Assembly (NCBI RefSeq): GCF_023375815.1
Contig: NZ_CP067412.1
Coordinates: 2,170,001-2,234,000 of the forward strand
DNA: 64,000 nt
Source of the DNA: Pseudomonas sp. HS6
Lineage (GTDB): Bacteria > Pseudomonadota > Gammaproteobacteria > Pseudomonadales > Pseudomonadaceae
Direction of reading: 5' to 3'
A program made the position numbers and the translations under genes. Positions 15,239 through 32,980 of the stretch are shown here, piece by piece. The notes under the pieces were generated by a model. The model was not told the origin of the DNA, did not search any database, and was given only the letters and a program-made list of their open reading frames with translations. Each line of letters begins with the position of its first letter. Within the stretch, counting starts at the first letter, position 1.

Positions 15239-16291
15239 TCATTGAAACGTTTCAGGCACTCCCCGGCATTGCGCATAGATCGCTTGTAGCTCAAAGGGCA
15301 CAACCTGCTTGCCCAAAGGACCGGGCAACACACTCGACTTCCATTGATTGACCAGTGCGTCGCCATTGACGCTCGCCTCAAGGCACGCCAGACCCAGTGA
15401 CTCCAGTTCCTGGTGGCAGGCACTGAATACATCTGTCATCGCGCGCAACTCGAAATCGAGTTTGCCAGTGACCTGATTAATGGACAGCGCTCCCGCCTCG
15501 CGTAACCTCACCCACAGGTAAGCACCGCCCCAGGCATCATTGTCACTGTTCAGATCCGCGTGCGACGTATTGGCGTCATAGCCTTTTCGGGCATACCAGA
15601 AAATACGATTCAAAAAGATGAACAGAGCAAGTTCCGGAAACTCTCTGGCGTTCTCGACAAGTTGTAAATCTGCCCAGAGTTCTCCAACGATGGCAAGATT
15701 CCCGCCGCTGACACGTAACGACTTGTCTTTCGACGGAACCACTCGCCACACACCCACCCGGTGACACATTTCATGCAACAGGGAATACAGACAGACGACC
15801 TCCTCCAAACAATCCGAAAAACGGGCTTCGAACAATTCATTTACATTATCCGAACCCACCAGTCGCAGTATCGGCGCATGCACTTGTTTAAAGATCCGCG
15901 TAGATACTTCTACCAGCTCAAAACCAAAAATATGCTGTTCTTCCTCACTACGCAGCCCGGCACCAAAAGGAAAATAAAGAAATACATTATTAAACAAGGC
16001 CGCTTCATCATCAGCATCGACAATACGCACTGGAAAGTGCTCTGGCCATTTCACTTTTTCACCAAAGTTGCAGCGTTGGGAAACTCTGGCAAGCAAGGTG
16101 TCGGCACTCAGTCGGCGAGCCAGCCACGCTTGCATCCGCTCTTCCAGATCCACGCGCCTGGCCAATGTCGCGCGTACATGAACATTCCGGTCTTTGGTGA
16201 AGCTGTATCGGCCGTCCAGAAACACCGGCTCCGCAGCGCGGATCTTATCGCCCAGTTGCGCCAGATCGTCTAATGAAAATACGCGGTTCAC
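15239..16291 (-). CDS. Unrecognised protein with HExxH motif (putative zinc metallopeptidase-like), cluster-associated
   Basis: 350-residue soluble protein that I cannot assign to a named family. The visible signature is LLHEMCHRVGVW with His173, Glu174 and His177, followed 27 residues later by Glu204 in IVGELWADLQ. HExxH followed by a downstream Glu is the gluzincin-type zinc site, so a metallopeptidase or metal-dependent hydrolase fold is plausible. No signal peptide. It overlaps the ACT-domain gene by 4 nt (ATGA) and the pair is divergent from the NRPS genes. Base composition is visibly more AT-rich than fecI next door, suggesting acquisition with the cluster. A role in trimming, resistance or regulation is only a guess. 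Confidence 0.7.
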   Translation of the reverse strand: MNRVFSLDDLAQLGDKIRAAEPVFLDGRYSFTKDRNVHVRATLARRVDLEERMQAWLARRLSADTLLARVSQRCNFGEKVKWPEHFPVRIVDADDEAALFNNVFLYFPFGAGLRSEEEQHIFGFELVEVSTRIFKQVHAPILRLVGSDNVNELFEARFSDCLEEVVCLYSLLHEMCHRVGVWRVVPSKDKSLRVSGGNLAIVGELWADLQLVENAREFPELALFIFLNRIFWYARKGYDANTSHADLNSDNDAWGGAYLWVRLREAGALSINQVTGKLDFELRAMTDVFSACHQELESLGLACLEASVNGDALVNQWKSSVLPGPLGKQVVPFELQAIYAQCRGVPETFQ

Positions 16292-16713
16292 GGTCTACTC
16301 CTGGTCGGCCCGGCAGGCTGGATAACGGTATTGCCCGCAGCACTCAAGGCGCCGCAGGCCTGAGCCAGCGACTCATCCTTGATGAAAAACAAGTCCCCGG
16401 CGAAGGTCGAGATCGTCAACAGGCTGATACCTGCCCCGGCCAACACATGGCTGACAAAGGCAATCAAACCCACCACATCGGCCGGGTGCTCACTGACCAC
16501 TTCAAGGCACCGCCAGGTGAGGCTCGCCTGATCGATTTCGCAGCCCGTGACTTGAAGATCACTTCTGCAAATCAGCGTATTTTCATTCGGCGCAATCGAC
16601 AGGGACAGAACATCCGCGCTCGCGGACAGACAAGCGATATTCGGAATTCCTTTGAGCCTGTAAACCGAATACAGAGATTCATGCACTTTGAAAACCAATT
16701 CAAAACCGGCCAT
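16288..16713 (-). CDS. Stand-alone ACT-domain protein
   Basis: 141 residues, with an ACT-type amino-acid-binding domain in the C-terminal half: GLIAFVSHVLAGAGISLLTI followed by STFAGDLFFIKDESLAQA has the classic spacing of free-standing ACT_7-like proteins. The N-terminal half (FKVHESLYSVYRL) also looks like the first ACT-like unit of such proteins. ATG 16713 is chosen because GAAGGAT lies directly upstream and family homology starts there. It is the first gene of a two-gene divergent unit beside the NRPS cluster. With lysA and lysR in the same cluster, lysine or another amino acid is a reasonable ligand, but this is inference. Confidence 0.75.
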   Translation of the reverse strand: MAGFELVFKVHESLYSVYRLKGIPNIACLSASADVLSLSIAPNENTLICRSDLQVTGCEIDQASLTWRCLEVVSEHPADVVGLIAFVSHVLAGAGISLLTISTFAGDLFFIKDESLAQACGALSAAGNTVIQPAGPTRSRP

Positions 16714-16746
16714 ATCCTTCCACCACCAAGACACTCTCTGCACAAC

Positions 16747-16776
16747 TTTATATGTTATGCAAAGGCATTGAGTTAA
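16747..16776 (-). promoter_or_regulatory. Candidate sigma-70 promoter for the ACT/HExxH unit
   Basis: On the minus strand: TTAACT, an 18-bp spacer, then TATAAA, about 35 bp before the ACT-gene ATG. Confidence 0.45.
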
Positions 16777-17086
16777 CACCCGGAAAGTCGCTGTTTATTC
16801 TTGCCAACCCCAACAGACTGCTAGTACACAAACACTATTGTCAAGCCATATCAGAAATGAATAACCCACAGAAAACTGGATATTTTTCTTCTTCGTGATT
16901 TTCATATAGCTTGGCCGCCAATTGAAAAATATCGTTTATCTGCAGTGAAATCACCCGCAATTACTACCTGGCCTGAATCACATTGAAGACATTCGCCAAT
17001 TGCGCGACTACTACAGTCTTCCTTGCTACTGGGCGCTGAAAAAAAATAACAGCATCACATGGATTTGAATAAGAGAGGCCCAGAGT
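16777..17086. other. Divergent control region of the NRPS cluster
   Basis: AT-rich stretch between the ACT gene and the first NRPS gene. No terminator, RNA gene or convincing plus-strand -35/-10 pair is visible. A run of A (17040-17047) and AAGAGAGG precede the NRPS start codon. Confidence 0.5.
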
Positions 17087-20000
17087 ATGTTCAACGAATG
17101 TTTACATGACTTTCTGACCGCACGAGTGGCGCTGGCACCTGAAGCGACAGCGGCTGTTTTCAATGACTCACTGCTGACCAATGCTCAATTGGAGCAGCGG
17201 GCCGAACAGGTTGCATGCAGCCTGCTTGGCAAGGGCATATCCCCCGGCAGCCGAATCGCGATCCAGGTTCCGCGTTCGCTGGACATGCTGGCGGGCGTCA
17301 TCGGCATTCTTAAGGCCGGCTGTACCTGCGTTCCCATCGACCCGGAAGATACTGACGAGCGTCGAGCCGCCATCCTCGACCACTGTGATGCCCAGGCGCT
17401 GGTAGTCGACCAGGCGAGCGCAAACGCCGAAGGTGTCTGGAGCGGTGCCACGCTGACCCTCGATCACCTGCTCGACTCGCCGCGCACCTCTGGCGCGCAA
17501 AGCCTGCCGACGGTAAACGCCGATCACCTGGCTTTTGTGTTCTACACCTCGGGTTCTACCGGGCAACCCAAAGGCGTCATGCTGTCCCATCGCGCCTTGG
17601 TCAGCGGTCAGCGTTGGTTGCAGACGCGATTCCCGCTGAACGAGAACGACCGTCAGTTGTTGCGCACGACCTTGAGCGTCACCAACCTTGTCCGGGAAAT
17701 TTTCTGGCCTCTGCTTTCGGGTTGCGTGATCGTCGTGTTGCCGCCCGGCGAGCACAGAAGCCCGTCGAAACTGGTCCAGACCATCAACCAGAGCCGTATC
17801 TCGGTATTCCTGGCAGTGCCGGCACTGTTGGCGGGCATGATCGAAGAACCGGAGCTCAAGCAGAATCGCTCGCTGCGCTATGTGTTCAGCAGCAGCGATG
17901 TGATGCCGGGCGATCTGCCTTCGAGGTTTTTCGCCTGTGATATCCCGGCCCGACTGTTCAATCTCTACGGCCTCACCGAAGCGCTGTACAGCTGCCATTG
18001 GGAATGCCTGCCGGAACAGCAATATCTCGGCTTTGTCCCGGTTGGTTTCCCGGCGGAACTGACGCCCGTCATCGTTGATGAGTCGCTGCGCAAAGTCGCC
18101 GACGCTCAACCCGGCGAGTTGCTGATTACCGGTGTCGGTATCGCAGACGGTTATTTCAAGCAGCCCGAACTCACTCGCGAGCGCTTTGTCCAGACGCCCT
18201 ATGGAATGGCGTTCCGCACCGGGGATATTGCCAGACAAGACGCGGATGGCCAGATCGACCTGCTGGGACGAATCGACGATCAGTTGAAAGTCGCCGGCTA
18301 TCGTGTGGAACCCGGGGAGATCGAGGTTCAACTGACCCGTTGCCCGGGGGTCAAAGAAGCGGTGGTGGTGGGTATCCGCTCGCCAAGCGGCAACACTCGT
18401 CTGTCCGCTTATCTGACCGTCGAGGCTGGCAGTGAGCCGAGCGCTGCAGAACTTCGTGCCAGTCTGGCCAGCCGCCTGCCCGACTACATGCTGCCCGCCA
18501 GATTCCTGATCGTGAATGCCATTCCCTATACCGACAACGGCAAGGTCGATCGCAAGTCGCTGCGCGATTCGAGCTCTCGGGAGCTGGAACTGTCGGAGGA
18601 CAACACTCGCCCCACGACCGACACCCAGGCACGGATCGCGGCGCTGTGGGAAGAAGTGTTGGGCATGAAGAACATCGGTATTCACGACAACTTTTTCTCC
18701 CTGGGGGGAGACTCCATACAGGGTTTCCTGATCAGTGCAAAGGCACGCCAGATCGGTATAAAACTGTCGGCCACGCAAGTGTTTGAAACACCCACAGTGG
18801 CGGAAATGGCCGTGCATGTGGAGTGCCGAGGCCTGGATGAGCCGTCTGTCAGTGACCGCCCCCCGGCGGCGAACGACACCGCGTTCGTACCCGATGACGC
18901 CGTACGTAAAGTCATGGCGGCGCATGGCGCTCAATCCTGCTCTGCACTGACGGATATGCAAAAAGGGATGCTGTTCCACTCCCTGCTCGACCCCGACTCG
19001 GGCGTTTATTTCGAGCAGTTCATCTATCACCTCGAAGGCAGTGTGGTTGAGCCTTCATTGCGCAAGGCATGGGAGCAGGTGGTCCAGCGCCATGAAATCC
19101 TGCGCACGGCGGTGGTCACTGACGGCCTGCGGGAACCTCTACAATTCATTCACGAACACGCATCGCTGGACTGGACCTCGCTGGACCTTTCCGGCGTCGC
19201 TCCAGACCAGGTGCCATCGTCTATCGAGGCCTATCTGAGCGAGGACCGGCGACGCGGTTTCGCTTACGAGCGGGCACCGTTGTTCCGGCTGACATTGATC
19301 ACGCTGGGCAACCACCAGTACAAGCTGGTCATGAGTTATCACCACCTGATTCTGGACGCCTGGTCGCTGTTCATTCTGCTCAGTGATTCTTTGGAGTTTT
19401 ACCGAGCCGAGCTTGACGGGACACCACCTGCGCTAGCCCAGGCCAGACCGTTCAGGGATTACGTGACCGCACTGACGCAAGAAGATGTGGCTGCAGCGCA
19501 GGCGTACTGGAAAAATCGCCTCAAGGATTTCAACACCCCGACCATCATCAGCCAGGCCGAGAAGCTGAACCTCTCCGCCAGTGCTCAAGAGCTCCATGCC
19601 GAAGCCCGCCTGGACCTGACCGAGCTGGAAACCGAGCGCCTGCAAGTCTTCGGCAGACAGCATCAATTGACCCTGAACACTTTGGTGCAGGGCGCATGGG
19701 CGCTGGTGCTGGCCAAGCACAGTCAGCAGCGCGATATCTGCTTCGGCATCACCATCACTCATCGTCCGGTGGATCTGGCCGGCGTGCAGGATATGGTGGG
19801 CATTTTCATCAACAGCTTGCCGATGCGGCTCAACATCACGCCACAAGCCACGCTGGATCAATGGCTTCAAGAGGTGCAAAGCGTCCAGGTCGGAGCCCGT
19901 GCTTATGAGCACTACCCATTGCCACTGGTCCAGGCCGGGGCCGAGGTGGCCAGCGATCAACCCCTCTTCGAAACCCTGCTGATTTTCGAAAACTTCCCGC

Positions 20001-20539
20001 GCACGTCCGATTGGCGTGCAAAAAAAGGCATCAAGATCCGCCAGGAACGTTACGTCGGCTGGACCAACTATCCCTTTGCAATCGAGGCGATGCCCGAAGA
20101 AACACTGTACTTCCAGGTCAAGTACGACAAGGGTTTCTTCAGTCCGGCCAAGGTCAGTGAAGTGCTGGAGGATTTCCGTTCGATCCTCAATACCATCGGC
20201 ATGGGCACCCTCAAAACCCTGGGCGAACTGGTTGGCCAACTGAACCGGACCGTAGCCGCCGAAAACCCTGGCCATGGCACCTACACCCGTGGTCACGCAT
20301 CGCTGCCGGTCCAGCCCACCGGCGCCAGCGGTCAAGCGCAAGAGCGACTGGCCGGCATCTGGCAGCAAGCCCTGGAGCTGGATCAAATCGATGTGTTCAC
20401 ACCGTTCCTGGCCTTGGGTGGCAACTCGCTGCTGGCGTTGCAAGTGTATGCGCGGTCGCGAATGGAAGGGTTCGACTTCGAGCTCAAGGATCTGCTGAGC
20501 GACAACGGAACGATCGAGCATCTGGCTTCATTTTTCTAA
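17087..20539 (+). CDS. Nonribosomal peptide synthetase, A-T-C-T
   Basis: 1150 residues in four domains. The adenylation domain (about 1-500) shows YTSGSTGQPKG (153-163), NLYGLTEA, RTGD, and NGKVDRKSL (484-492). Carrier domain 1 has LGGDS with Ser543. The condensation domain (about 615-1060) has an intact HHLILDAWS (752-760). Carrier domain 2 has LGGNS with Ser1114. The A domain lacks the Asp that normally holds the alpha-amino group: the FDxSVWEIF stretch reads VTNLVREIF, giving an extracted code of roughly TNRLFSLYS. A substrate that is not an ordinary alpha-amino acid is therefore likely. The second carrier has no adenylation domain in cis and must be loaded in trans or by transfer. No MbtH gene is nearby. 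First gene of a long plus-strand run. Confidence 0.93.
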   Translation: MFNECLHDFLTARVALAPEATAAVFNDSLLTNAQLEQRAEQVACSLLGKGISPGSRIAIQVPRSLDMLAGVIGILKAGCTCVPIDPEDTDERRAAILDHCDAQALVVDQASANAEGVWSGATLTLDHLLDSPRTSGAQSLPTVNADHLAFVFYTSGSTGQPKGVMLSHRALVSGQRWLQTRFPLNENDRQLLRTTLSVTNLVREIFWPLLSGCVIVVLPPGEHRSPSKLVQTINQSRISVFLAVPALLAGMIEEPELKQNRSLRYVFSSSDVMPGDLPSRFFACDIPARLFNLYGLTEALYSCHWECLPEQQYLGFVPVGFPAELTPVIVDESLRKVADAQPGELLITGVGIADGYFKQPELTRERFVQTPYGMAFRTGDIARQDADGQIDLLGRIDDQLKVAGYRVEPGEIEVQLTRCPGVKEAVVVGIRSPSGNTRLSAYLTVEAGSEPSAAELRASLASRLPDYMLPARFLIVNAIPYTDNGKVDRKSLRDSSSRELELSEDNTRPTTDTQARIAALWEEVLGMKNIGIHDNFFSLGGDSIQGFLISAKARQIGIKLSATQVFETPTVAEMAVHVECRGLDEPSVSDRPPAANDTAFVPDDAVRKVMAAHGAQSCSALTDMQKGMLFHSLLDPDSGVYFEQFIYHLEGSVVEPSLRKAWEQVVQRHEILRTAVVTDGLREPLQFIHEHASLDWTSLDLSGVAPDQVPSSIEAYLSEDRRRGFAYERAPLFRLTLITLGNHQYKLVMSYHHLILDAWSLFILLSDSLEFYRAELDGTPPALAQARPFRDYVTALTQEDVAAAQAYWKNRLKDFNTPTIISQAEKLNLSASAQELHAEARLDLTELETERLQVFGRQHQLTLNTLVQGAWALVLAKHSQQRDICFGITITHRPVDLAGVQDMVGIFINSLPMRLNITPQATLDQWLQEVQSVQVGARAYEHYPLPLVQAGAEVASDQPLFETLLIFENFPRTSDWRAKKGIKIRQERYVGWTNYPFAIEAMPEETLYFQVKYDKGFFSPAKVSEVLEDFRSILNTIGMGTLKTLGELVGQLNRTVAAENPGHGTYTRGHASLPVQPTGASGQAQERLAGIWQQALELDQIDVFTPFLALGGNSLLALQVYARSRMEGFDFELKDLLSDNGTIEHLASFF

Positions 20540-20629: not shown

Positions 20630-23600
20630 ATGTCGCTGAACCCGAATCTTCAGATTGATTTGCCTGATAACGCTCAAGCGAAATCGATAGAGGACTTGCT
20701 ATGGTCCTTGGCCGAAAACGGCATCGCGGTCAATAAACGGCGAGGTGCCCTGACACTCGACATCCCCTCCCCTTGCCCGTCTGAAACATTGATCGCCCAG
20801 GTCAACAGCGTCGCGACCCAAGCGCTGGCGTGCATCCATCGCAATCCGGGCGTTCTGGTCGTCGATACGGAAGAACAACCCGACAACGTGATTTTTCCCA
20901 TGACGGATTTGCAGACGGCCTATCTTGTCGGCGAATCGGAACTTGATACGTTGAGTACCGCCGCGTTTGTCACCCAAGGTTATAAAGTCACGGGACTGGA
21001 TCTCGAGAGACTGACACGGACCGTCAACACACTGTTGGCCACGCACCCCATGCTGAGGGTCAGGGCCTCTCTCGAATGGGGTGGCCAATCGATCAATCAG
21101 ACGCCGGCTCCCTGGCGTCCGATCCATGAGCGTTTCTCTGACCCGGCCGAGGCTCTCGAAAGGTACAAGGCCCTGCTCGACTCACCACAGACATTGCTTC
21201 CCGACCTCTCACAAGGTCCGCAACTGGGGTGCGTCGTGATCGACAACGGCAGCTTCCACTACTTGATCCTCAGTACACGCCTGTTCGTACTCGATGCGCG
21301 GTCTATCACCCTGGTCTACCGTGACTTTACGAGGTTCTATCAAGCAGACAACGGCGTGCAGGCGCAAGCACACAGCCTGTATCCGTCATTTATCAAAGCA
21401 CTGTCGCATTATCGGCACAGCCAGCAGTATCGAAACGCGATCGCCTACTGGACACGAAGACTGGGAGAACTTCCCGGTGGGCCGCAGTTGCCTGCGAGTC
21501 GCGACGCTCACCCGTCGCAGCCCCATCGCTCCTCGTTCAAGCGGATCACCCACCGGCTCGCACCTGAGTCATGGCAGAAGCTTCAGGCCTACGCTCGGCA
21601 ATACAATCTGACGACCAATGCCGTGCTTTGCTCGCTCTACGGACAAGTCCTGAAAAAGTGGTCCGAGTGTGAGCATTTCTGTCTGACTGTCCTGGTCAGC
21701 GCTCGACCGCAAATCATCTGCGACGCGCCCATCCAGGAACAATTGGGCAATTTCGGCTCGACCTTGTTGCTGGAAATGAAACCGCAAGGCGACACCTTCC
21801 TGGCGTGCGCGAAAACGGTACACGCACAACTTGTGTGCGACCTTCAGCACAGCATGGTGTCTGCTACCCAGGTGGCCCATCGCATGCGCAAGTCCGACAG
21901 CGATGCGGGTCTGAGCAACATTCCTTATGTCTTCGCTTCAGGACTCGATACCCGGGGACAGGACAGCACTCCCCAACGCATTGACCTCCCGGGTTGGGAA
22001 CTGGACAGCAAGTCGATGCATACCCCGCAGGTCATTCTCGACCATCAGGTATTCGAAGATGCGGGCCACCTGGTCACACAGTTCGATTACGTAGCGGCGG
22101 CTTTCCCTGAGCATCTGATCGAAGAGCTGGTAATCACTCACCAGCACATGCTCGAGCACCTGGCCGGATGCGCAGAACACTGGCTCACCCCCTGGGAAAT
22201 ACCGCTGGACACAGCGCTTGTCCTGGGTCGGCAAAGCGCCAACGACACCACCGTTGCCTGGAGTGAAGACGGTCTGTTTGACCAGGCCAATCAGCACATC
22301 AAATCGTTGCCCGACCAGTGTGCAATCGCCAGCGGCGAGACACAGATGACCTATGGCGAGCTGGGGGCCCGGGTGAATGTACTTGCGACGACCATCACAG
22401 ACGCTGACAAAAGCGGCCAGGTGTCCGAAGTCGTCGGCATCCTTGCGGGCAAGTCGCCGGCGCAATACACAGCGGCGCTGGCCGTTATCCAGGCGGGCAA
22501 GGCGTATCTGCCGCTGCACATCGACTGGCCGATCCAGCGCATCAAGGCAGTCCTGGAGAAGAGCCGGGTCAACACCTTGATACTTGATGCCAGGGGCGTG
22601 GCAAAACTGGCGGGCGAATCCGGCGAACTCAAGCTGATCGCCATCGAACCCGACAGCTTTGCACTGGCCACGAGTACCTTGCGCCAGCCGGGCGTTCAAG
22701 AGCTCGCCTATGTCATCTATACGTCGGGTTCCACCGGTTCGCCCAAAGGTGTCGCGATCAGACACGGCGCGGTGCAAAACACGATTTTCTCCATGATTCG
22801 CCGATTCGGACTGTCGAGCAGCGACCGCATCCTTTCATTGTCCGAACTGAACTTCGACCTGTCGGTGTTTGACTTGCTGGGCGGGATTGCCACAGGCGCG
22901 ACGATTGTCCTGCCACCAGCCAACGCCCCGCGCGACCCACTGACGTGGAGTGAGTGCCTGACCCGATCCAGGGTCACCGTGTGGAACACCGTCCCGGCGC
23001 TTCTGGAAATGTTGCTTGATCACCTTGGCGATCAGGCAGGCCAGGTCATGGCGTCCTTGCGACTCGTCCTGTTGAGCGGCGACTGGATACCTCTGTCACT
23101 GCCCCGGCGTCTGAAAGAGTGCTGCCCCCACGCGCGCCTGATAGCACTGGGCGGCGCGACCGAAGCGTCGATCTGGTCCAACTATTACGAAGTCGGTGAG
23201 GTCCGTCGCGACTGGAGAAGCATTCCGTATGGCTACCCGCTGGACAACCAGACCTTTGATGTTCTGAGCCGTGACCTGCAGCACCAGCCCAACTGGGTGC
23301 CAGGCGAGCTGTACATCGGTGGCGCAGGTGTCGCTGCCGGCTACCATCACGACCCGCAATTGACAGCACAAAGTTTCATTGTCCAGCCTGACGGATCCCG
23401 TCTGTACCGAACGGGGGATTACGGTTGTTATTGGCCAGATGGAACCCTGGAGTTTCTCGGACGCCGGGACAGCCAGACCAAAGTGCGGGGCTATCGTGTC
23501 GATCTGTCGGAGGTTGAGAAATACCTGACGCAGGCAAAGGGCGTCACAGCAGCCGCCTGCCTGCTCATAGGCGAAAATGCCGGCAAACGCCTGGCAGCTG

Positions 23601-24820
23601 CCATCGTCATCGATCCGGACACGTTTGAGGGCATGGACGCGCTGCGCTCATCACTCAGCGACCACCTTGCGCTTTACAGTCTTCCCGAACAGATTCGCTG
23701 TATCGATGCCATGCCCCTGACGGCCAATCAGAAGCGTGACACGGCCGCACTGGCGGCGCTCCTTCTGCCCGCCTGCAACGGGCTTGCCGAGGATGAAGGC
23801 GCTCACAGCGAAATCGAACGTGAACTGGTCCGACTGTGGAACGAAGCGGGTTCCATCAGCGTTTCTGCGCTGGACATGGATTTCTTCGCCGCCGGAGGCA
23901 CCTCGATATCCGCGATCAGGTTGATTCGCCAGATCAATGACCGATACGACGTCAATCTGTCACTGGCCAACTTCTTTGAATACGCAACGATCGCCAGACA
24001 AGCCAGCCTGATTGGCAGCCTGAAAGCGCGAGCGACCGTTTCCAGCTCTTTTGTCCGGCTCAGAAAAGGTGAGGAGCACGCAACGCCCCTGGTGCTGATC
24101 CATCCGGTGGGCGGTCACCTGATTTCATATCAACCGCTGATCAATGCGCTCTCGACGAAGTTCGACATTTATGGCCTCCAGTGTGCTGCCGTCGAACAGA
24201 TACCAGACACCCTGGAAGCGCTTGCGCGTCACTATCTCGATCTGCTTTCAGCAGAAATCGATATTCAACGCACCTGTCTCGTTGGTTGGTCCATGGGCGG
24301 CATCATCGCCACGGAAATGGCCAGACAATTGGCACGTCTGGGGCATTCACCGCGCAAGTTGTTTGTCATCGACAGTTACGTCGCCGACAACCGGCAGGCC
24401 GACGGTTACCTGCAACATGATTCGATCAATGGCTTTTTCAATGACTATTTGCAGGGAGCGACAAGCGGCGAAAACCCGGTTTTTCCTTCGGACAATTTCG
24501 ATTCCGCTTATCACCGGCTGGCAGCTGACTATCCAGAACTGGGAAAGGTCGGACATCGCGAACTTTTCAACTTGTACCGCATTTATGAAGCGCTGTATCA
24601 GCGGCTGCTGGCCTATGTCCCACCTGCAGCGATGGCGATCGATTGCCAGCTGTTTCGTGCCGCCAACGCCCATTCGCAGCGTTTTTCTCATCTGGCGCCC
24701 TACTGTCCGAGTCTTGAACCGACAAACCGAAACAACCCTGAAACCGTGATTTTGAGCGGCGATCACTACTCACTGATGAATGCAGTCAATGTTCATCAGG
24801 TTGTGCAATTCATCGAATAA
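20630..24820 (+). CDS. Nonribosomal peptide synthetase, docking-Cy-A(Cys)-T-TE
   Basis: 1396 residues. An N-terminal docking-like region (about 15-70) resembles TubC-type docking domains. A heterocyclisation-type condensation domain (about 85-520) follows; its DxxxxDxxS motif reads RLFVLDARS (217-225), so the first Asp is Arg217 while Asp222 and Ser225 remain. The A domain (about 550-1040) has YTSGSTGSPKG and NFDLSVFD (Asp743); reading the pocket gives D-L-F-N-L-S-L-I-W, one change from the cysteine code DLYNLSLIWK of pyochelin and yersiniabactin synthetases. The carrier domain has GGTS (Ser1092). A C-terminal thioesterase shows GWSMGG (Ser1221) and a late GDHYSL His. It should add Cys, perhaps cyclise it, and release the product. 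Ends 44 nt before a cupin gene. Confidence 0.93.
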   Translation: MSLNPNLQIDLPDNAQAKSIEDLLWSLAENGIAVNKRRGALTLDIPSPCPSETLIAQVNSVATQALACIHRNPGVLVVDTEEQPDNVIFPMTDLQTAYLVGESELDTLSTAAFVTQGYKVTGLDLERLTRTVNTLLATHPMLRVRASLEWGGQSINQTPAPWRPIHERFSDPAEALERYKALLDSPQTLLPDLSQGPQLGCVVIDNGSFHYLILSTRLFVLDARSITLVYRDFTRFYQADNGVQAQAHSLYPSFIKALSHYRHSQQYRNAIAYWTRRLGELPGGPQLPASRDAHPSQPHRSSFKRITHRLAPESWQKLQAYARQYNLTTNAVLCSLYGQVLKKWSECEHFCLTVLVSARPQIICDAPIQEQLGNFGSTLLLEMKPQGDTFLACAKTVHAQLVCDLQHSMVSATQVAHRMRKSDSDAGLSNIPYVFASGLDTRGQDSTPQRIDLPGWELDSKSMHTPQVILDHQVFEDAGHLVTQFDYVAAAFPEHLIEELVITHQHMLEHLAGCAEHWLTPWEIPLDTALVLGRQSANDTTVAWSEDGLFDQANQHIKSLPDQCAIASGETQMTYGELGARVNVLATTITDADKSGQVSEVVGILAGKSPAQYTAALAVIQAGKAYLPLHIDWPIQRIKAVLEKSRVNTLILDARGVAKLAGESGELKLIAIEPDSFALATSTLRQPGVQELAYVIYTSGSTGSPKGVAIRHGAVQNTIFSMIRRFGLSSSDRILSLSELNFDLSVFDLLGGIATGATIVLPPANAPRDPLTWSECLTRSRVTVWNTVPALLEMLLDHLGDQAGQVMASLRLVLLSGDWIPLSLPRRLKECCPHARLIALGGATEASIWSNYYEVGEVRRDWRSIPYGYPLDNQTFDVLSRDLQHQPNWVPGELYIGGAGVAAGYHHDPQLTAQSFIVQPDGSRLYRTGDYGCYWPDGTLEFLGRRDSQTKVRGYRVDLSEVEKYLTQAKGVTAAACLLIGENAGKRLAAAIVIDPDTFEGMDALRSSLSDHLALYSLPEQIRCIDAMPLTANQKRDTAALAALLLPACNGLAEDEGAHSEIERELVRLWNEAGSISVSALDMDFFAAGGTSISAIRLIRQINDRYDVNLSLANFFEYATIARQASLIGSLKARATVSSSFVRLRKGEEHATPLVLIHPVGGHLISYQPLINALSTKFDIYGLQCAAVEQIPDTLEALARHYLDLLSAEIDIQRTCLVGWSMGGIIATEMARQLARLGHSPRKLFVIDSYVADNRQADGYLQHDSINGFFNDYLQGATSGENPVFPSDNFDSAYHRLAADYPELGKVGHRELFNLYRIYEALYQRLLAYVPPAAMAIDCQLFRAANAHSQRFSHLAPYCPSLEPTNRNNPETVILSGDHYSLMNAVNVHQVVQFIE

Positions 24821-24864: not shown

Positions 24865-25233
24865 ATGTCGCAGCCAAAAATCGATGACATCGTGATACTC
24901 GGCCAATCCGAAGCCGAAGTCTTCAACGTGAAAAAAGGACCCGACCGCCTGATTTCGGGCGATCCAGACATCGTCAACAGCGTCTACTTCCGCAGCCAGG
25001 ACAAGCGCTTCACCTCTGGTATTTGGGAAAGCACGCCGGGCAAATTCGTCTGCATCTACGAAGAAGACGAGTTCTATTTCATGCTCAGCGGAAAAGTGGT
25101 CATTACCGATCATGTGGGCAACAGCAAAACCTTCGTACCTGGTGACAGCATTGTCGTGCCTGCCGGTTTCACGGGGGAATGGGAAGTTCTGGAACCCACC
25201 AAAAAGTTCTTTGCGCACTATCTCCCCGCCTGA
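24865..25233 (+). CDS. Small cupin protein (DUF861/EutQ-like)
   Basis: 122-residue single-cupin protein. The motif GIWESTPGKFVCIYEEDEFYF followed by LSGKVVITD and PGDSIVVPAGFTGEW matches the cupin_3 (DUF861) type, which usually lacks the full His set of metal cupins. ATG 24865 is chosen because AAAAGGAAATTG precedes it; an in-frame ATG 10 codons earlier has no such site. It lies inside the biosynthetic run, 44 nt after the thioesterase-containing NRPS. Role unknown: a binding or isomerase-like accessory function is possible. It differs from the histidine-rich cupin at 26689. Confidence 0.78.
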   Translation: MSQPKIDDIVILGQSEAEVFNVKKGPDRLISGDPDIVNSVYFRSQDKRFTSGIWESTPGKFVCIYEEDEFYFMLSGKVVITDHVGNSKTFVPGDSIVVPAGFTGEWEVLEPTKKFFAHYLPA

Positions 25234-25339
25234 TCGAGAGAGAACGAAGAACGGTGTTACGGATCGAGCAGATGAGCTTCGCTCACCCGTATTGACCGTT
25301 TCTACCCGCGGTTTTGTCCACGAAATTTCCTGAGGCCTG

Positions 25340-26686
25340 ATGATGCGTTGCATTCCCCCCAGCAGTGACACCTACGATATTTTAGGCATTGGTTTTGGTC
25401 CCTCCAACCTGGCTTTGGCCGTCGCGGTTTCCTCGGCGGGTTACAACGGGGCAGTCGGTTTCATCGAGGACAAGACCGCTTTTTCCTGGCACGGCGACAT
25501 GATGCTTCCCGGTGCCAAAATGCAGGTCATGTTTTTAAAGGACCTGATCACGCAAAAGGACCCGACCAGTCCTTTCACGTTCATCAACTATCTCCACGAA
25601 CAGGAGAGGCTCAACAGCTTCATCAACTTGCGTGCGCTGTACCCCTCACGCAACGACTACCAAGGCTATTTCGCATGGGCTGCGGACAAGTTTTCTCACT
25701 GTGTCCAATATGCCTGCTCAGCGTCGATGATTGCGCCAATCGAAAACGAAACAGGCGAAGTGGAAGGGTTTGAGGTTCATTGCCATGACCTGCACAGCGG
25801 TGAACGCACGATCAAACGCGCACGAAACATCGTGATGGCAACCGGAGGCAGCCCTGCCCTGCCCTGTGGCATTTCCCAACAGGACTTGAGCGCCAGGCTG
25901 TTCCATAGCTCTCAGTACCTCTCGCGCCTGGAGGCACTCAAGGCCACCGAGACAAACCCTGCATTGCGGGTGTTGATTGTGGGCGGAGGACAAAGCGCAG
26001 CGGAGATTTTCCAGCACGTGCTGCATGAGTTTCCACACGCCCGGGTGGATCTGGCCGTGCGAAACCACTCGTTGATGCCGGCCAACAGCAGCGCCTTCAG
26101 CAATGAAATTTTCGACCCGGCGAGCGTCGACGCCTTTTACGAGTCGTCCTCGACCATCAAAGAGCACACCCTGCGCCACCTTCGCCATACAAACTATGCG
26201 GCCGTAGACGAAGACCTGATCCAGGCGTTGTATGGGCAGTTGTACGAAGAAAGACTCGCGGGGCGTGACCGCGCCCGAATTCTCAATTATCACTCCCTGA
26301 CCCACGTCGCGAAGGACGATCCGTTCCTTGACGTGACCCTGCGGGACGAGCGAACGCAAGCCACGACCGTCAATCGCTATGACACTGTCATCCTCGCCAC
26401 GGGCTACAACCAGAAACACGCTCACCGGCTGCTGAGCGGCGTGGACCACTTGCTGCTGCGCCATCCGGATGGCTCGTTGAAAGTGGCCAGGGATTATTCG
26501 CTTGAAACCCGACCCGCGGTCTCTGCGCGCTTGTTTGTGCAGGGGCCGACGGAGCACAGCCATGGCCTGACCAGCAGCCTGATATCGATTCTGCCGTTCC
26601 GGGCTCACGACATCCTGAGCGCTGCCAGTAAAGCCCCGGCCACCCTCCCCCGCGATAAAACCGTTCTCGCCATGGAATGCATCTGA
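25340..26686 (+). CDS. L-lysine/L-ornithine N-monooxygenase (flavin-dependent N-hydroxylase)
   Basis: 448-residue class B flavin monooxygenase of the PvdA/SidA/IucD family, which hydroxylates the side-chain amine of ornithine or lysine using FAD, NADPH and O2. The FAD site GIGFGPSNLALA is near residues 16-27. It also shows SWHGDMMLPGAKMQ and FLKDLITQKDPTSPFTF (substrate-side signature), the NADPH site LIVGGGQSAAEIF and the ATGYN motif. GAGG lies before the ATG. The next gene, a cupin, starts after 2 nt and the MetRS-like gene follows with an overlap. That context, with lysA in the same cluster, makes N6-hydroxylysine for N-N bond formation more likely than hydroxamate siderophore synthesis. 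No formyl- or acetyltransferase is present. Confidence 0.92.
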   Translation: MMRCIPPSSDTYDILGIGFGPSNLALAVAVSSAGYNGAVGFIEDKTAFSWHGDMMLPGAKMQVMFLKDLITQKDPTSPFTFINYLHEQERLNSFINLRALYPSRNDYQGYFAWAADKFSHCVQYACSASMIAPIENETGEVEGFEVHCHDLHSGERTIKRARNIVMATGGSPALPCGISQQDLSARLFHSSQYLSRLEALKATETNPALRVLIVGGGQSAAEIFQHVLHEFPHARVDLAVRNHSLMPANSSAFSNEIFDPASVDAFYESSSTIKEHTLRHLRHTNYAAVDEDLIQALYGQLYEERLAGRDRARILNYHSLTHVAKDDPFLDVTLRDERTQATTVNRYDTVILATGYNQKHAHRLLSGVDHLLLRHPDGSLKVARDYSLETRPAVSARLFVQGPTEHSHGLTSSLISILPFRAHDILSAASKAPATLPRDKTVLAMECI

Positions 26687-26688
26687 AC

Positions 26689-27045
26689 ATGACTTCTTAC
26701 TCCATTACCCGTAAAGCCGACGCGCCTTCCAGCCAGGAATACGGCTGCCGCTTTACCCGTTACCTGCCGTGGGGCAATCCGCAGCCCTCGGACAACGGGG
26801 CAGCCGTCTCGGTGATAGCTCCCGGGGAGCAATCACTCGCACACGAGCACGATGAACATGAGTTTTTCTATGTGTGCAGCGGCGCCGGTCTGTTCTGGGC
26901 GCAGGACCGATCGGAAATGATTCAGGCCGGCGATGCGATCTGGGTGCAGCCCGGGACCCGGCATCATTTCGAAAACACGTCGAGCGCTGCAACACTGGAA
27001 GTTTTCAGCGTCTGGAGCACCGAAAGCAAAGGAGCAGAAGCATGA
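26689..27045 (+). CDS. Histidine-rich cupin, likely subunit of a split hydrazine synthetase
   Basis: 118-residue metal-type cupin_2. Motif 1 reads HEHDEHEFFYV (the HxH...E metal ligands) and motif 2 PGTRHHFEN. ATG 26689 is used: it follows the monooxygenase stop by 2 nt, and the earlier in-frame ATG would overlap that gene. It overlaps the MetRS-like gene by 4 nt. In Spb40-type hydrazine synthetases a cupin domain is fused to a MetRS-like domain; the MetRS part makes an aminoacyl ester on the N-hydroxy group and the cupin part catalyses rearrangement to the N-N bond. Gene adjacency and coupling support the same role here as separate proteins. This is inference from context. Confidence 0.82.
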   Translation: MTSYSITRKADAPSSQEYGCRFTRYLPWGNPQPSDNGAAVSVIAPGEQSLAHEHDEHEFFYVCSGAGLFWAQDRSEMIQAGDAIWVQPGTRHHFENTSSAATLEVFSVWSTESKGAEA

Positions 27046-28700
27046 ACAGCACCATTTCGAATAAAAAATACCTGGTCACCGCAACGCCGCCTACGACCAA
27101 CGGCGATCTGCATGTGGGTCACTTGTCGGGCCCCTATCTTGCCGCCGATGTCTTTGCCCGCGCACAGAAACTCCAGGGGCATGAAGTGCTTTACCTGAGC
27201 GGTGGTGATGATCATCAAACCTATGTCGTCACGCGGGCCGAGAAACTCGGCGTGACGCCTCATTCCCTGGCAGCGCGGTGCAACGAAGAGATTCGCTCCA
27301 CGCTGCAGGCCGGTGACATTGACATCGACTCTTTCAATGCGCCCGACGCCCCCTATGTCGAGGCGGTCCAGACGTTTTTCTCGGCGCTGGATCAGCGCGC
27401 AATCCTACGTGACAAGGTCGTGGTCTTCCCTTACAGCAAAAAACAGGAACGCTACCTGTTCGAAGCCTACGTGAGCGGCATCTGCCCGGAATGCTACAGC
27501 GGCACCGCCGGCGCCATCTGTGAAACCTGCGGGCATCCCAATGACGCCAATACACTGATGTTTCCTTCGTTCGGCAGCGCGATGAACGACGAGGATATCG
27601 AGTACCGCACGCTGACGATCAAGGTACTGCCGCTGGAAGATTACCGCGCCGATATCCTCGCGTTTTATCAGCAACACAACACTATCATGCGGCCTCATTT
27701 GCGTGCGTTCATCGATGAAATGATGTCCAGGCCACTGGAAGATTTTCCCGTCACCTACCCGAGCCATTGGGGGATTCGCGCTCCGTTTCCTGGCTGCGAG
27801 GATCAGGTGTTGAATGTCTGGGCCGAGATGTTGCCAGGGCTGATTCACATGACGAACAGCACCTCGCCCGACTCGCCGTGGTGCCCGGACAGCGGATACC
27901 AACTGGTCCAGTTCATGGGCTTTGACAACAGCTACTATTTTTCCCTGGTTCACCTCGCCATGCAGTTGGCACAGGGTGATCTGGTCACGCCAACCGCCAT
28001 TATCACCAATGAGTTCTTCCATCTGGAGAACCAGAAGTTTTCCACCAGTCGCGGCCATTTGATCTGGGCCGCCGACTTGCTGAAGGACTATGGCGCCGAC
28101 AACGTCAGATTCTTCCTGGCACTCGCCAATCCGGAAACCCAGACGGCCAACTTCAGCGAAAAAGAGTTCATCGAGGCCGTCCAGCAAAAACTGCACACGC
28201 CTCTGGATCGGATTGCAGACGCCATCGCCCGGCAGTCGCCCGGCGAAATGGACGTCAGTGAACTGCACGTTCACTTCCTGCGTTATGCCGAGCGTATGAC
28301 GCGCCTTTACTCACTGGAAACGTTCTGCCTGCGACAAGCGGCCGAAACCACGGCGCAGCTCTTGCGTTTGTTATCGGAAAAAGCACAGCAGGCCCCGGTT
28401 GATAATCGTCAACTGGCGTTTGCCAGCCTTGGCCTCTGCTACATCTCGCACTATGCCGCCCCGCTGATGCCCGCGTTCTGTGAACGTCTCAAGCAGGCGC
28501 TGCAGGTTCGCACGAGCACGGCCGGGCAAGCTTTCCCGCAAGCGATCCAGCGCCTGACCATTGAAAAACTGAACCCGGCGGTACTTCTGGCGCCCCTCAA
28601 GAAACAGGAAAACGGCTGTCAGACACTCCCGGCCCATGGGGCAGACAAGCCCGCCACCCCATTGCGAAGCGCGAAAGCCATCGACCTCATCCCCGGCTGA
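27042..28700 (+). CDS. Methionyl-tRNA synthetase-like protein, likely hydrazine synthetase subunit
   Basis: 552-residue class I aminoacyl-tRNA synthetase paralogue of the MetRS type. It keeps the HIGH-type motif HVGHL (24-28), a zinc knuckle CPEC...CETC (Cys148, 151, 160, 163), and a Rossmann core. The KMSKS loop is altered to KFSTS (332-336). There is an alpha-helical C-terminal part but no C-terminal OB-fold domain. ATG 27042 overlaps the cupin stop (ATGA). As a cluster enzyme coupled to an N-hydroxylase and a cupin it most likely activates an amino acid and esterifies an N-hydroxy substrate. Alternatives are a resistance copy of MetRS or an aminoacyl-tRNA supplier. The altered KMSKS and the coupling argue against a plain housekeeping enzyme. 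Confidence 0.88.
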   Translation: MNSTISNKKYLVTATPPTTNGDLHVGHLSGPYLAADVFARAQKLQGHEVLYLSGGDDHQTYVVTRAEKLGVTPHSLAARCNEEIRSTLQAGDIDIDSFNAPDAPYVEAVQTFFSALDQRAILRDKVVVFPYSKKQERYLFEAYVSGICPECYSGTAGAICETCGHPNDANTLMFPSFGSAMNDEDIEYRTLTIKVLPLEDYRADILAFYQQHNTIMRPHLRAFIDEMMSRPLEDFPVTYPSHWGIRAPFPGCEDQVLNVWAEMLPGLIHMTNSTSPDSPWCPDSGYQLVQFMGFDNSYYFSLVHLAMQLAQGDLVTPTAIITNEFFHLENQKFSTSRGHLIWAADLLKDYGADNVRFFLALANPETQTANFSEKEFIEAVQQKLHTPLDRIADAIARQSPGEMDVSELHVHFLRYAERMTRLYSLETFCLRQAAETTAQLLRLLSEKAQQAPVDNRQLAFASLGLCYISHYAAPLMPAFCERLKQALQVRTSTAGQAFPQAIQRLTIEKLNPAVLLAPLKKQENGCQTLPAHGADKPATPLRSAKAIDLIPG

Positions 28701-28745: not shown

Positions 28746-29948
28746 ATGAAAATCCAGGCTCTGGTTCGCATTTCGCCGTTCAAACGCATGTGGTCGGCGA
28801 TGTTTCTCAGCATGCTTTGCAGCTTTGCCATCATGATCGCGGTGTCGATTCACCTCTTTCACGGTTTCCACTCCACGCTGCTGGCGTCCGGTATCTATGC
28901 CGTCCAGTTTGGTCTGCCGGTCCTGTTCGTGGGACTGGCCGGCTGGCTGTGCCAGCGAGTCACACCGGTGCGGTTGCTGATCACCGTCGAGGTGCTCAGT
29001 TTCATCGCCTTCGCGACGCTGGCGACCTGGATCGAAACGCTGCTGCCAATCATTGTGCTCACCGTTTTCCTCAGGGGCTTCGCGGAGATCATCATCAAGA
29101 GCACACGAGCCAAACTGGTCAAGCATCTGTTCAGCCCGGCAATCCTGACCGATGCCAACACCTGGATGATGACTTCCTATTATCTGGGCTCGGCATTGGG
29201 AGGCGCGCTCGGTGCCTGGTTGTATGACCGTTATGGTGTCCAGGCGACGATCTACTTGTGCGCCCCCCTGAGTCTCGTTGCCGCCACACTCTATCGTGGC
29301 TTGCCGGCCGTCGAGACAGCCCAGGGGGCTCAGGAGAACGCAACACGGGTTTTCAGCTCATGCCTGCAACTGCTCGCGCGTCAGCCGCAACTGGTCAGAC
29401 CCTTGACCGTGTTGACCCTGAGTGTGGTTGTCTTTCAGGGCGCTCACCTGATCGCACGCAGCTGGATTCCCATGACTCATCTGCAACTGAGTCAGTCCGG
29501 TGTGGGCGTGTTCCATTGCGTGAGTGTCTTCGGCATCTTTCTGGGTGCCCTGTTCGTCACCACCGCCTGGTTCAAAAACAATGAGGCGTCCCTTTCGAAT
29601 GACCAGACATTTACGCTGGGGCTTGCAGCGATGGCGGTTCCCTTCCTGATAACCTCTGCCTTTTTCGTCATACCCGCCTACTTTGTCTTCATGTTCATCT
29701 TCGAAGTTGCTTTCATGCGTGCCTACAATGAGCTGCTCATGGAAACACCGGCAGAAGACATCAGCGTTGTGATGGTGACGTTCCATTCACTGGCGCCACT
29801 GGGCATGGCCCTCGTCGCCGTAACAGGCGGATATGCTATCGATCATGTCGGTGCCCTCCCGGTCATCGCGGGCCTCGTAATCTTTGCTTTCTTCATCTTA
29901 TGTTCAGCACGCTGGCTTTCAACCCGACCGGTCAACGCGGTCCAGTAA
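28746..29948 (+). CDS. MFS transporter, probable exporter of the cluster product
   Basis: 400-residue inner-membrane protein with about 11-12 hydrophobic helices and MFS character: LAGWLCQRVTPVRLL in the 2-3 loop and YYLGSALGGALGAWLYDRYG around TM5. It lies in the biosynthetic run, 45 nt after the MetRS-like gene and 24 nt before lysA. Export of the peptide or of an intermediate is the natural guess. Substrate cannot be told from the sequence. Confidence 0.85.
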   Translation: MKIQALVRISPFKRMWSAMFLSMLCSFAIMIAVSIHLFHGFHSTLLASGIYAVQFGLPVLFVGLAGWLCQRVTPVRLLITVEVLSFIAFATLATWIETLLPIIVLTVFLRGFAEIIIKSTRAKLVKHLFSPAILTDANTWMMTSYYLGSALGGALGAWLYDRYGVQATIYLCAPLSLVAATLYRGLPAVETAQGAQENATRVFSSCLQLLARQPQLVRPLTVLTLSVVVFQGAHLIARSWIPMTHLQLSQSGVGVFHCVSVFGIFLGALFVTTAWFKNNEASLSNDQTFTLGLAAMAVPFLITSAFFVIPAYFVFMFIFEVAFMRAYNELLMETPAEDISVVMVTFHSLAPLGMALVAVTGGYAIDHVGALPVIAGLVIFAFFILCSARWLSTRPVNAVQ

Positions 29949-31232: not shown

Positions 31233-31242
31233 CAGATGAGGC

Positions 31243-31281: not shown

Positions 31282-32547
31282 TCAGTTCGCCAGTTCGATC
31301 CCCGTCGCAGCCGTTATCTGGCTTATTGTCGCCTTGGCTTGCTCGAGCGCCGTTGAATAATGTTCAGCGACGATATGGATATACCCGAGTGAAGAGTCAT
31401 TACCCGTCATCGGCAAAATCACTTGCCCCTCCTGAATCGCGATCGAGTGCTCCTTGACCCACGGGAAGTGTTCTTGCATGTAACCTGCGTCGACCGTAGC
31501 CCGTGAGACGGTTTGTTGCATCGGCGCCAGGCGCCGGGACGTCGAAAACAATCGGGTCTTCGCCTGAGCCTCTACAATCTTGCCCAGATAGGTGTCCAGC
31601 AAAATATCAAAGGCGCTTAAGGACGTGGATTTCTGGAACAGTGTCGACAATGCGCCACCCATGAATCGGGGATTCACTTCTACGAGATCGACGCGACCGT
31701 TATTGACAATCACTTCAATATGAAAGACTCCGACATCAAGCTTCAGGCAGTCGACGACTTTCTCACAGTATTCAAATACCGCAGGCTCATCGGCGTAGTG
31801 TCCACGCGGAGCCATGGTCGACTCTATTTCCAGCAGTTCATTGTGTTTTGCCCGGTCACGCCTGGTGAGCATCAACGGATAGAAACCGTGCTCGTTTCTC
31901 GCCACCTCGGCTGAATACATTTGCCCACTGATGTATTCCTCGACGGTATATTCATCGGATATGAAGCCACGGAACGCGCTGTCTATATCGTTACGCGTCG
32001 ACTCATACTCGGTCATGAACTGCTGCAGATCCTGCGGCGTTTCGAGGTGCGCCGTCAGGTATTTGGCAAACCCGGAGACGGGCTTGACGATGCACGGATA
32101 ACCGATGACATCCACCGCTGACGGCAGTTGTTCAAGCGTGCGGCAAGTTCGATGAGCACAACGAGTCAGCCCTTCTGCCTTCAGCAGTTCACGCGCCCGG
32201 GCCTTGTTCTTGGCGTTGGCCACACCTTCATGGGAAGTACCTTTGAGGTTCGCCCCCCGTGCCGCCGCCGCGACCAGTTCAACGATATCGTCAAGAGGCG
32301 TAAAGACGGCCGAAACAGGATACTTGTGGCTGATCGTCTTCATGAGGCTTTCAAGCGTTTCAACATCGAGAGAGGACTCGACATCGTAGGTCGCTACCGT
32401 GTTTTCGGTGAAGAACTCATTCGTCAAAGACGTGTGATTACGGGTCAATTCGGAGCGTATGAAAATAACGCCAAGATGTCTCTTGTTAGCAGCCGTGATG
32501 ATTGCAGAAGTGACATCCGTGCAGTCAACCATCAATACATAGTCCAT
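31282..32547 (-). CDS. ATP-grasp ligase of the biosynthetic cluster
   Basis: 421-residue ATP-grasp enzyme. It shows an N-terminal pre-ATP-grasp Rossmann part, the ATP-binding lysine in PCIVKPVSGFAKYL, and the metal-binding end VEVNPRFMGG. Enzymes of this type (BacD-like amino-acid ligases, carboxylase-like ligases) join a carboxylate to an amine through an acyl phosphate. ATG 32547 has GGGAG 7 nt upstream; an earlier in-frame ATG at 32640 lacks a site. It is convergent with lysA and divergent from lysR, and its composition is AT-rich for this genome. It could join the hydrazine acid to another amino acid or add a protecting residue. That is inference. Confidence 0.85.
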   Translation of the reverse strand: MDYVLMVDCTDVTSAIITAANKRHLGVIFIRSELTRNHTSLTNEFFTENTVATYDVESSLDVETLESLMKTISHKYPVSAVFTPLDDIVELVAAAARGANLKGTSHEGVANAKNKARARELLKAEGLTRCAHRTCRTLEQLPSAVDVIGYPCIVKPVSGFAKYLTAHLETPQDLQQFMTEYESTRNDIDSAFRGFISDEYTVEEYISGQMYSAEVARNEHGFYPLMLTRRDRAKHNELLEIESTMAPRGHYADEPAVFEYCEKVVDCLKLDVGVFHIEVIVNNGRVDLVEVNPRFMGGALSTLFQKSTSLSAFDILLDTYLGKIVEAQAKTRLFSTSRRLAPMQQTVSRATVDAGYMQEHFPWVKEHSIAIQEGQVILPMTGNDSSLGYIHIVAEHYSTALEQAKATISQITAATGIELAN

Positions 32548-32980
32548 CTTGATCTCCCTGAAGTTTATTTGAACAGCACAAGTAAAATCGAAAAAAACGA
32601 CATCAGCCTCCTTGAAAACGTCATTACCATTATTGAACACTCATTCAAAAACAATCTGGCAGGCGGGCTGTAAAGTGCGACCGATCATAGCAATCGGCAG
32701 CAGTCGCGTCAGCCTCCCGATACGTCCTGAATCGCCTTTCCGGTGCGGACCGATAACCTTTTCCGCCCGCCCATATCAGAAATGGATCCATTATTTCAAA
32801 AGTGGCATGGACGTGTGTATGATCGCGCCGTGACCCAAGGTCTGCGCCGGCAGGTACGACGTAAGTCATCCCCCCATGGATCGAGGGCTCGCGGCTTCGA
32901 AAGTACAACCAGAAAAGAATAAGAACTTATTAAAAATGACAATAATAAAACTTTAAACGTGCTGCCAGATTATCAAAGGA
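32548..32980. other. Long divergent intergenic region (ATP-grasp / lysR)
   Basis: 433 bp, AT-rich towards the lysR side. It holds the inverted repeat at 32918-32931 and the lysR ribosome-binding site AAAGGA (32975-32980). No convincing coding frame, RNA gene or terminator was seen. Confidence 0.55.
32918..32931. promoter_or_regulatory. Candidate LysR-type operator
   Basis: Perfect inverted repeat AATAAG-AA-CTTATT containing a T-N11-A pattern (T32920 to A32932), the usual LysR-family recognition form, 56 bp before the lysR start. Confidence 0.45.

Follow-up and report, generated by a model that had tools for sequence, protein, structure and literature searches.

Do three adjoining genes of Pseudomonas sp. 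HS6, which encode a flavin N-monooxygenase, a small cupin and a protein related to methionyl-tRNA synthetase (MetRS), join two amino acids through a nitrogen-nitrogen (N-N) bond? The genes lie at 25340-28700 of a 64,000-nucleotide (nt) stretch of the genome (NZ_CP067412.1, positions 2,170,001 to 2,234,000), which is called the window here. An original prediction made from the DNA alone had answered yes, with the chemistry divided between two coupled polypeptides in a Pseudomonas. The chemistry, in which an N-hydroxylase is followed by a MetRS-like ligase and a zinc cupin, finds strong support in the protein families, the conserved ligands, the motifs and the order of the genes; both the split form and a hydrazine synthetase in Pseudomonas had already been published. 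The trio is very probably a hydrazine synthetase with its hydroxylase, because the MetRS-like protein is not a MetRS and the cupin keeps the metal ligands of PyrN at the same spacing. We put the probability of this reading, a hydrazine synthetase of two polypeptides with an N-hydroxylase acting on some diamino acid, most likely lysine, at about 0.86, judged from sequence.

The gene trio

The three genes are as follows (aa, amino acids).
25340..26686, + strand: flavin N-monooxygenase (lysine/ornithine N-hydroxylase), 448 aa, stop codon at 26684-26686, second ATG at 25343; PF13434, 348.6 bits
26689..27045, + strand: zinc-type cupin, 118 aa; ligands H52, H54, E58 and H92
27042..28700, + strand: stand-alone MetRS-like ligase, 552 aa; HVGH and KFSTS motifs, pocket signature TPPTTNG

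The cupin ATG at 26689 is two bases past the N-monooxygenase stop, and the ATG of the MetRS-like gene at 27042 gives a 4-nt overlap with the cupin open reading frame (ORF); reading the ORFs showed the positions and layout first proposed for the trio to be exact to the base. The Pfam matches are Lys_Orn_oxgnase (4.8e-104), Cupin_2 (1.4e-16) and tRNA-synt_1g (4.8e-72). The same three genes occur in the same order in Pseudomonas viridiflava (L001), where the hydroxylase is 79 %, the cupin 73 % and the MetRS-like protein 72 % identical, and in five actinobacterial loci (L002-L006), where the values are 43-46 %, 41-46 % and 52-54 %. The arrangement is therefore not due to chance.

The MetRS-like protein

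The window protein scores 241.2 bits on NF001100, against a cut-off of 587 for methionine--tRNA ligase, and 256.3 bits on its best model, against a cut-off of 553. The other MetRS-like match in the genome (6.55 Mb, one contig) is 25 % identical to it and is the true MetRS; this scores 974.7 bits and carries tRNA_bind (PF01588) and Anticodon_3 (PF19303) domains, neither of which was found in the window protein by a domain scan.

A quick tree covered 84 rows: 68 came from loci, after removal of repeats, and 16 from the 120 listed homologues. The window protein falls among 79 rows, split from five others with an SH-aLRT value of 100; those five are the genome's own MetRS, a Streptomyces protein (L065), an archaeal protein (L007), and Kutzneria and Streptomyces proteins (L063 and L064). 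A firm grouping with functional MetRS, which the prediction had named together with charging of tRNA-Met as an outcome that would refute it, did not occur in this tree. A cupin is present in the fetched locus for 60 of the 63 locus rows in the group of 79; for L034 it lies about 3 kb away and was seen in a wider locus (L052), and none was found in the fetched loci L061 and L094.

The MetRS signature LPYANG reads TPPTTNG in the window protein, and the methionine-pocket residues L13, Y15 and H301 (E. coli numbering) are replaced by P, T and F, which is not the pocket of a MetRS. Thr stands at the Tyr15 position in 70 of the 73 rows of an alignment that left out L007, L064 and L065, the exceptions being the genome's own MetRS, L063 and L094. 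The HIGH-type motif and zinc-knuckle cysteines of the class I synthetase domain are kept, and K332-F333-S334 is invariant across 58 MetRS-like sequences. The protein thus combines an ATP motif with a place apart from MetRS in the quick tree, as is expected of a hydrazine synthetase. An AlphaFold2 model has a mean pLDDT of 90.4. The closest solved relatives by sequence (PDB 9l8v, 9vq4, 9vqj and 9vr2, about 178 bits, with the next entry at 152) are proteins of 546-560 aa that were deposited as methionine-tRNA ligase.

The zinc cupin

The metal ligands of PyrN are H50, H52, E56 and H90 (PMC8664883). H52, H54, E58 and H92 of the window cupin match these in spacing, and so the metal ligands of a hydrazine synthetase, including the invariant catalytic Glu, are present. 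Of 61 cupin rows from 60 loci, all but one keep the first His (H52), the Glu and the last His (H92); the exception comes from L086, where a broken frame gives two pieces, of which this row is one. H54, the second His, is conserved in 45 of the other 60 rows and replaced by Gln in 15. This alignment counts one gene twice (L027 and L048) and leaves out 22 re-fetched loci, including L052, where the ligand positions hold His, Asn, Glu and His.

The N-hydroxylase

A lysine/ornithine N-hydroxylase encoded beside the cupin/MetRS-like pair is characteristic of hydrazine synthetases of this type, and is present here. A hydroxylase gene also accompanies the cupin/MetRS pair in 14 of 14 wider Pseudomonas loci (L040-L053, 16-18 kb each). 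The best solved relatives of the window enzyme are MbtG, which uses lysine (306 bits), and an ornithine 5-monooxygenase (282 bits), so sequence does not settle the substrate. The class first assigned, lysine/ornithine N-monooxygenase, holds; lysine as the substrate is suggested as most likely by a diaminopimelate decarboxylase (LysA) gene in the cluster.

Split and fused forms

Naturally separate cupin/MetRS pairs have been reported and assayed (Zhao et al. 2021, PMC8664883), a further separate pair, Afn8/Afn9, belongs to albofungin (PMC11705231), and Por9 and Por11 of Pseudomonas orientalis are a hydroxylase and a hydrazine synthetase (PMC11705231). The two-polypeptide form is already known, and the trio belongs to a published type; neither the split nor the genus is new. 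The split form is also the commoner one found in the genus. The MetRS-like protein is present at E <= 1e-45 in 25 of 398 genomes, at 26 places, of which 18 have a separate cupin ORF (17 in the fetched locus, one in the wider locus, L034/L052) and eight have a fused protein. In Streptomyces (the genus of L002) a match at E <= 1e-60 occurs in 71 of 392 genomes. A separate cupin ORF is present in 28 of 29 loci from the Streptomyces search (L066-L094) and none was found in the remaining one; these loci are among the best-scoring matches and are biased to window-like loci.

Several of the Pseudomonas loci differ from the window. Fifteen (L017-L026, L029-L033) encode the cupin separately, and their MetRS-like protein, about 510 aa long, has a different pocket and an altered KMSKS region, which reads KFSAWR in five and KFSMKN in one and gives no match to a KFS/KMS-type pattern in nine. 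L042 (genome G256, C12:5000-23000) has an azaserine-like gene set: a hydroxylase, a flavin adenine dinucleotide (FAD) oxidase, a 767-aa cupin-MetRS protein, and AMP-binding, cytochrome P450, acyl-CoA dehydrogenase and haem-oxygenase-like proteins. Its nonribosomal peptide synthetase (NRPS) is TubC_N-Cy-A-CP (Cy, heterocyclisation; A, adenylation; CP, carrier protein) with a Thr to Asn change. L048 (G349) has a LysR regulator, hydroxylase, major facilitator superfamily (MFS) protein, ATP-grasp protein, EutQ-like cupin, LysA and fused synthetase, with an adjoining FAD oxidase and methyltransferase; no NRPS match was found within its 18 kb. A short counterpart (L028, G334) has LysA and a fused synthetase. 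In both L042 and L048 a DAO-type oxidase adjoins the synthetase.

The surrounding cluster

The trio lies inside a block of 12 genes (15239-33928) that was delimited by comparison with P. viridiflava (L054, L095, L096). The other genes of the block, and those upstream of it, are as follows (T, thiolation; C, condensation; TE, thioesterase; ECF, extracytoplasmic function).
11093-15229: FecA-type receptor, FecR and ECF sigma genes, upstream of the block
15239..16291, - strand: HEMCH-motif protein, 350 aa, 71 % identical in P. viridiflava
16288..16779, - strand: ACT-domain protein (ACT_7), 163 aa, conserved in P. viridiflava
17087..20539, + strand: NRPS1, A-T-C-T, A-domain code TNRAFSLLY
20630..24820, + strand: NRPS2, C(Cy-like by motif)-A-T-TE, A-domain code DLFALSLIW
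24865..25233, + strand: EutQ-like cupin (Cupin_3), 122 aa, 64-67 % identical in Streptomyces/Kitasatospora
28746..29948, + strand: predicted MFS exporter, 400 aa
29973..31232, + strand: second diaminopimelate decarboxylase (LysA), E. coli type, 613.6 bits to PDB 1knw (from E. coli)
31282..32640, - strand: ATP-grasp ligase, 452 aa
32981..33928, + strand: LysR-type regulator, NF008239 (presumably the model of the lysA activator LysR), 363.9 bits against a cut-off of 288

The upstream FecA, FecR and ECF genes and a downstream Rieske gene were not found in the P. viridiflava locus. The HEMCH-motif protein has no significant match in Pfam, NCBIfam or PDB. The block has a G+C content of 56.2 %, lower than the 62.0 % of the remaining window sequence, which fits transfer. 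About 5 kb from the cluster, a 514-aa ORF (8771-10312, - strand) has a diaminopimelate-epimerase-like stretch at residues 379-499.

Eight genes form a core that is common to two phyla: NRPS1, NRPS2, the EutQ-like cupin, hydroxylase, cupin, MetRS-like protein, ATP-grasp ligase and LysA. This core is found in Streptomyces, Kitasatospora and a further genome of the genus of L002 (L002, L003, L005, L006, L100). The gene order is identical in Pseudomonas and actinobacteria up to the MetRS-like gene; the ATP-grasp gene then precedes LysA in the actinobacterial loci and follows it, on the opposite strand, in Pseudomonas. A Kutzneria locus (L004, 21 kb) has NRPS1 and the trio, and no other core gene was seen there. 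Searches of the actinobacterial loci found no MFS, ACT or HEMCH gene. The EutQ-like cupin is useless as a marker of the cluster, because 395 of the 396 Pseudomonas genomes have a relative at E <= 1e-8.

Relatives of NRPS1 with 46-84 % identity over at least 97 % of the length make up 28 clusters of sequences besides the window's own. The named ones are from Streptomyces, Kitasatospora, Kutzneria, Pseudarthrobacter, Amycolatopsis, Nocardia and a myxobacterial (Polyangiaceae) metagenome assembly, which also has a relative of the MetRS-like protein. The next-ranked protein drops to 35 %; further down, a shorter S. lydicus protein is 52 % identical over 55 % of the length. A protein of S. violaceoruber (P0127, 71 member sequences) is 54 % identical to NRPS1. 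We take the orphan cluster SCO6429-38 of S. coelicolor to hold two NRPSs, a hydroxylase, a MetRS-like gene and a diaminopimelate decarboxylase, and on this content it probably belongs to the same family. It has been termed a 'dipeptide' or NRPS cluster, with ten proteins predicted and SCO6431 as an NRPS, and the accessible text of these reports gives no structure (PMC8981147, PMC6627628, PMC9495134, PMC6414726, PMC7244524). A literature search, whose coverage excluded most subscription journals, found no product for the cluster, and the cluster is not described in the accessible parts of PMC8719888 and PMC13061610.

The NRPS domains

The A domain of NRPS1 was aligned to the solved gramicidin synthetase (GrsA) A domain together with 14 of the 28 relatives; one row (P0236, a more distant protein) was blank, and eight longer, distant proteins had been dropped beforehand. 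The code TNRAFS-x-LY is present in all 15 aligned members. It has Thr in place of Asp235 and Arg at 239 (GrsA numbering). Asp235 holds the alpha-amine in ordinary amino-acid A domains, and this code fits a substrate that lacks a free alpha-amine and has a second acid group, as an uncut hydrazine conjugate would.

The NRPS2 code DLFALSLIW is identical in the window, L054, L002, L003, L005 and L100 (6/6; L006 is left out of the NRPS2 counts, its frame being interrupted), and it is close to the cysteine code. In the same six proteins the Cy-like condensation domain reads RLFVLD in place of DxxxxD, and the heterocyclisation Thr is Ala, so an ordinary thiazoline is not expected. For AzsO of azaserine biosynthesis cysteine was predicted and serine is used (PMC10445470). 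The AzsO-type Cy domain, which keeps DxxxxD and changes the Thr to Asn, is absent from the six aligned NRPS2 proteins. On this motif and the comparison with L042, an azaserine-type pathway was rejected for the window.

The second LysA

The cluster LysA has 35 % identity to the genome's next LysA. It shares 67-69 % identity with the Streptomyces/Kitasatospora cluster copies, against 55-62 % with copies of the genus outside a viridiflava-like group, and because of this greater nearness it is probably a member of the cluster. At E <= 1e-110, 76 of the 396 Pseudomonas genomes, counting that of the window, encode a LysA of the cluster type. In five of five such loci examined, a LysR gene adjoins; the 14-20 kb searched gave no further protein of the cluster. 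One of the five (L150; G065, C46) keeps a lysA-lysR pair about 84 % identical to that of the window, with no other cluster protein in 20 kb.

Proposed pathway and alternatives

As its family suggests, the flavoenzyme would hydroxylate the side-chain amine of lysine. By analogy with PyrN (PMC8664883), the MetRS-like protein would activate a second amino acid with ATP and esterify it onto the N-hydroxyl without tRNA, and the zinc cupin would capture the unstable ester and rearrange it to the N-N bond. In Pfam scans none of the 12 conserved genes matched a saccharopine dehydrogenase or an FAD oxidase like Spb39 or Tri27, and the conjugate may for this reason remain uncut. It could then be loaded by the NRPS1 A domain, in which Asp235 is lost and Arg239 gained; NRPS2 would add a cysteine- or serine-like residue, the TE domain would release the product and the MFS protein would export it. 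That the intact conjugate feeds the NRPS is a proposal that we ourselves regard as doubtful, and we know of no earlier NRPS that takes such a conjugate whole.

Several points weigh against this scheme. The tree of MetRS-like proteins is a quick version with several long branches, and none of its rows is named as a characterised hydrazine synthetase. The hydrazine-synthetase relative in L042 keeps a weak Anticodon_3 match (28.2 bits), so the absence of this domain from the window protein is not decisive. The window pocket differs from that of enzymes like those of the P. orientalis por cluster, and the partner amino acid is therefore not readable from it. The solved stand-alone RHS1 cupin (PDB 5uqp) matches the window cupin weakly (E 1.5e-4), and eight other solved cupins match it better (4mv2, for example, with 9.5e-9). 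The Pfam scans covered the 12 conserved genes, and an enzyme that cleaves the conjugate might be encoded at another place in the genome; the uncut-conjugate step also rests on an A-domain code read in GrsA numbering. Finally, the hydroxylase could be an ornithine enzyme, as Por9 is (PMC11705231).

The last point defines an alternative in which the same chemistry acts on ornithine or another diamino acid and the LysA gene is coincidental. Por9 and the close scores to MbtG and the ornithine 5-monooxygenase speak for it, but LysA is a core gene in Pseudomonas and actinobacteria alike and resembles the Streptomyces/Kitasatospora cluster copies more closely than it does copies of the genus outside the viridiflava-like group, and we consider this alternative unlikely. 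LysA could either supply lysine or replace a poisoned housekeeping enzyme, and both roles fit. Hydrazines attack pyridoxal 5'-phosphate (PLP), on which diaminopimelate decarboxylase depends, and self-protection against a product that poisons this enzyme would agree with the E. coli-type LysA inside actinobacterial clusters too and with the genome (L150) that keeps a very similar lysA-lysR pair without the cluster. The five loci with such pairs and no other cluster protein, L150 among them, mean that a LysA of this type need not imply a toxin, and lysine supply explains it too; we hold self-protection only as a tentative, rather improbable explanation. Its extension is more speculative still: the uncut lysine-N-N-amino acid conjugate, a look-alike of diaminopimelate, would be the block used by the NRPS, the peptide an antimetabolite against diaminopimelate decarboxylase and LysA the protection. 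Improbable as it seems to us, it would, if true, give a function to a cluster family common to Pseudomonas and Streptomyces.

A hydroxamate siderophore cluster, in which the hydroxylase makes the hydroxamate for the NRPS and the cupin and MetRS-like protein have other roles, might be read from the FecA-type receptor, FecR and ECF sigma genes next to the block. These iron genes are not conserved in P. viridiflava, on which ground a siderophore cluster was rejected; moreover, no hydroxamate acyltransferase was recognised among the 12 conserved genes, and the hydroxylase accompanies the cupin/MetRS pair in all 14 wider loci, which makes this account very improbable. The class I domain with its HIGH-type motif and zinc-knuckle cysteines would also suit a second MetRS copy, a MetRS resistant to a drug, or an enzyme that forms amides with the help of tRNA, but the clade, score and pocket signature are unlike MetRS and the relative PyrN works without tRNA (PMC8664883). 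A MetRS duplicate was rejected on the score, the quick tree and the comparison with the genome's own MetRS, and we give this group of explanations next to no weight.

If the trio is a hydrazine synthetase, the N-N step provides a direct handle for finding the product of the cluster, through labelled lysine or hydrazine-directed probes, and the adenylation code and LysA provide two testable predictions. The trio follows a published rule; less known is the cluster, an orphan hydrazine-NRPS family in Pseudomonas and several actinobacterial genera.

Comparison with known systems

The system of Rhodococcus jostii RHS1 (PMC8664883) is like that of the window in having separate cupin and MetRS-like polypeptides and an N-hydroxylase, in that case a lysine hydroxylase. 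The two cupins share the Zn ligand pattern with the essential Glu, although RHS1 has Asp63 where the window has His52. RHS1 uses glutamate as the partner and has a saccharopine-dehydrogenase-like gene (PMC8664883); no such gene is among the 12 of the window, which has the NRPS pair instead. Albofungin biosynthesis likewise has a separate MetRS-like protein, cupin and lysine hydroxylase (Afn8, Afn9 and Afn18), but it is a polyketide pathway with a hydrazine transferase, unlike the window (PMC11705231).

In the same genus, por of P. orientalis has an N-hydroxylase and a hydrazine synthetase (Por9 and Por11; PMC11705231), as in the window. Four por-like loci (L040, L041, L043, L044), whose identity with por we infer, have a fused enzyme (relatives of 667-670 aa) that is 32-35 % identical to the window protein and has a different pocket signature; about 1 kb separates the hydroxylase gene from the synthetase gene in these loci. 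As far as these loci show, the window does not contain the por cluster.

PyrN, Spb40, Tri28 and AzsN use the same cupin and MetRS-like chemistry, but are fused in one chain, whereas the window proteins are split. In the pathways described for them an FAD oxidase (Spb39) subsequently cleaves the conjugate, or, as has been suggested for pyrazomycin, a saccharopine-dehydrogenase-like protein does so; neither kind of enzyme is among the 12 genes of the window. The FAD oxidase of the Spb39/Tri27 kind that stands beside the synthetase in hydrazinoacetate-type pathways (s56-p1, triacsin, azaserine) was not found among the 12 conserved genes of 15239-33928. SCO6429-38 of S. coelicolor, which we take to include MetRS-like and LysA genes, is very likely a member of the same cluster family as the window's.

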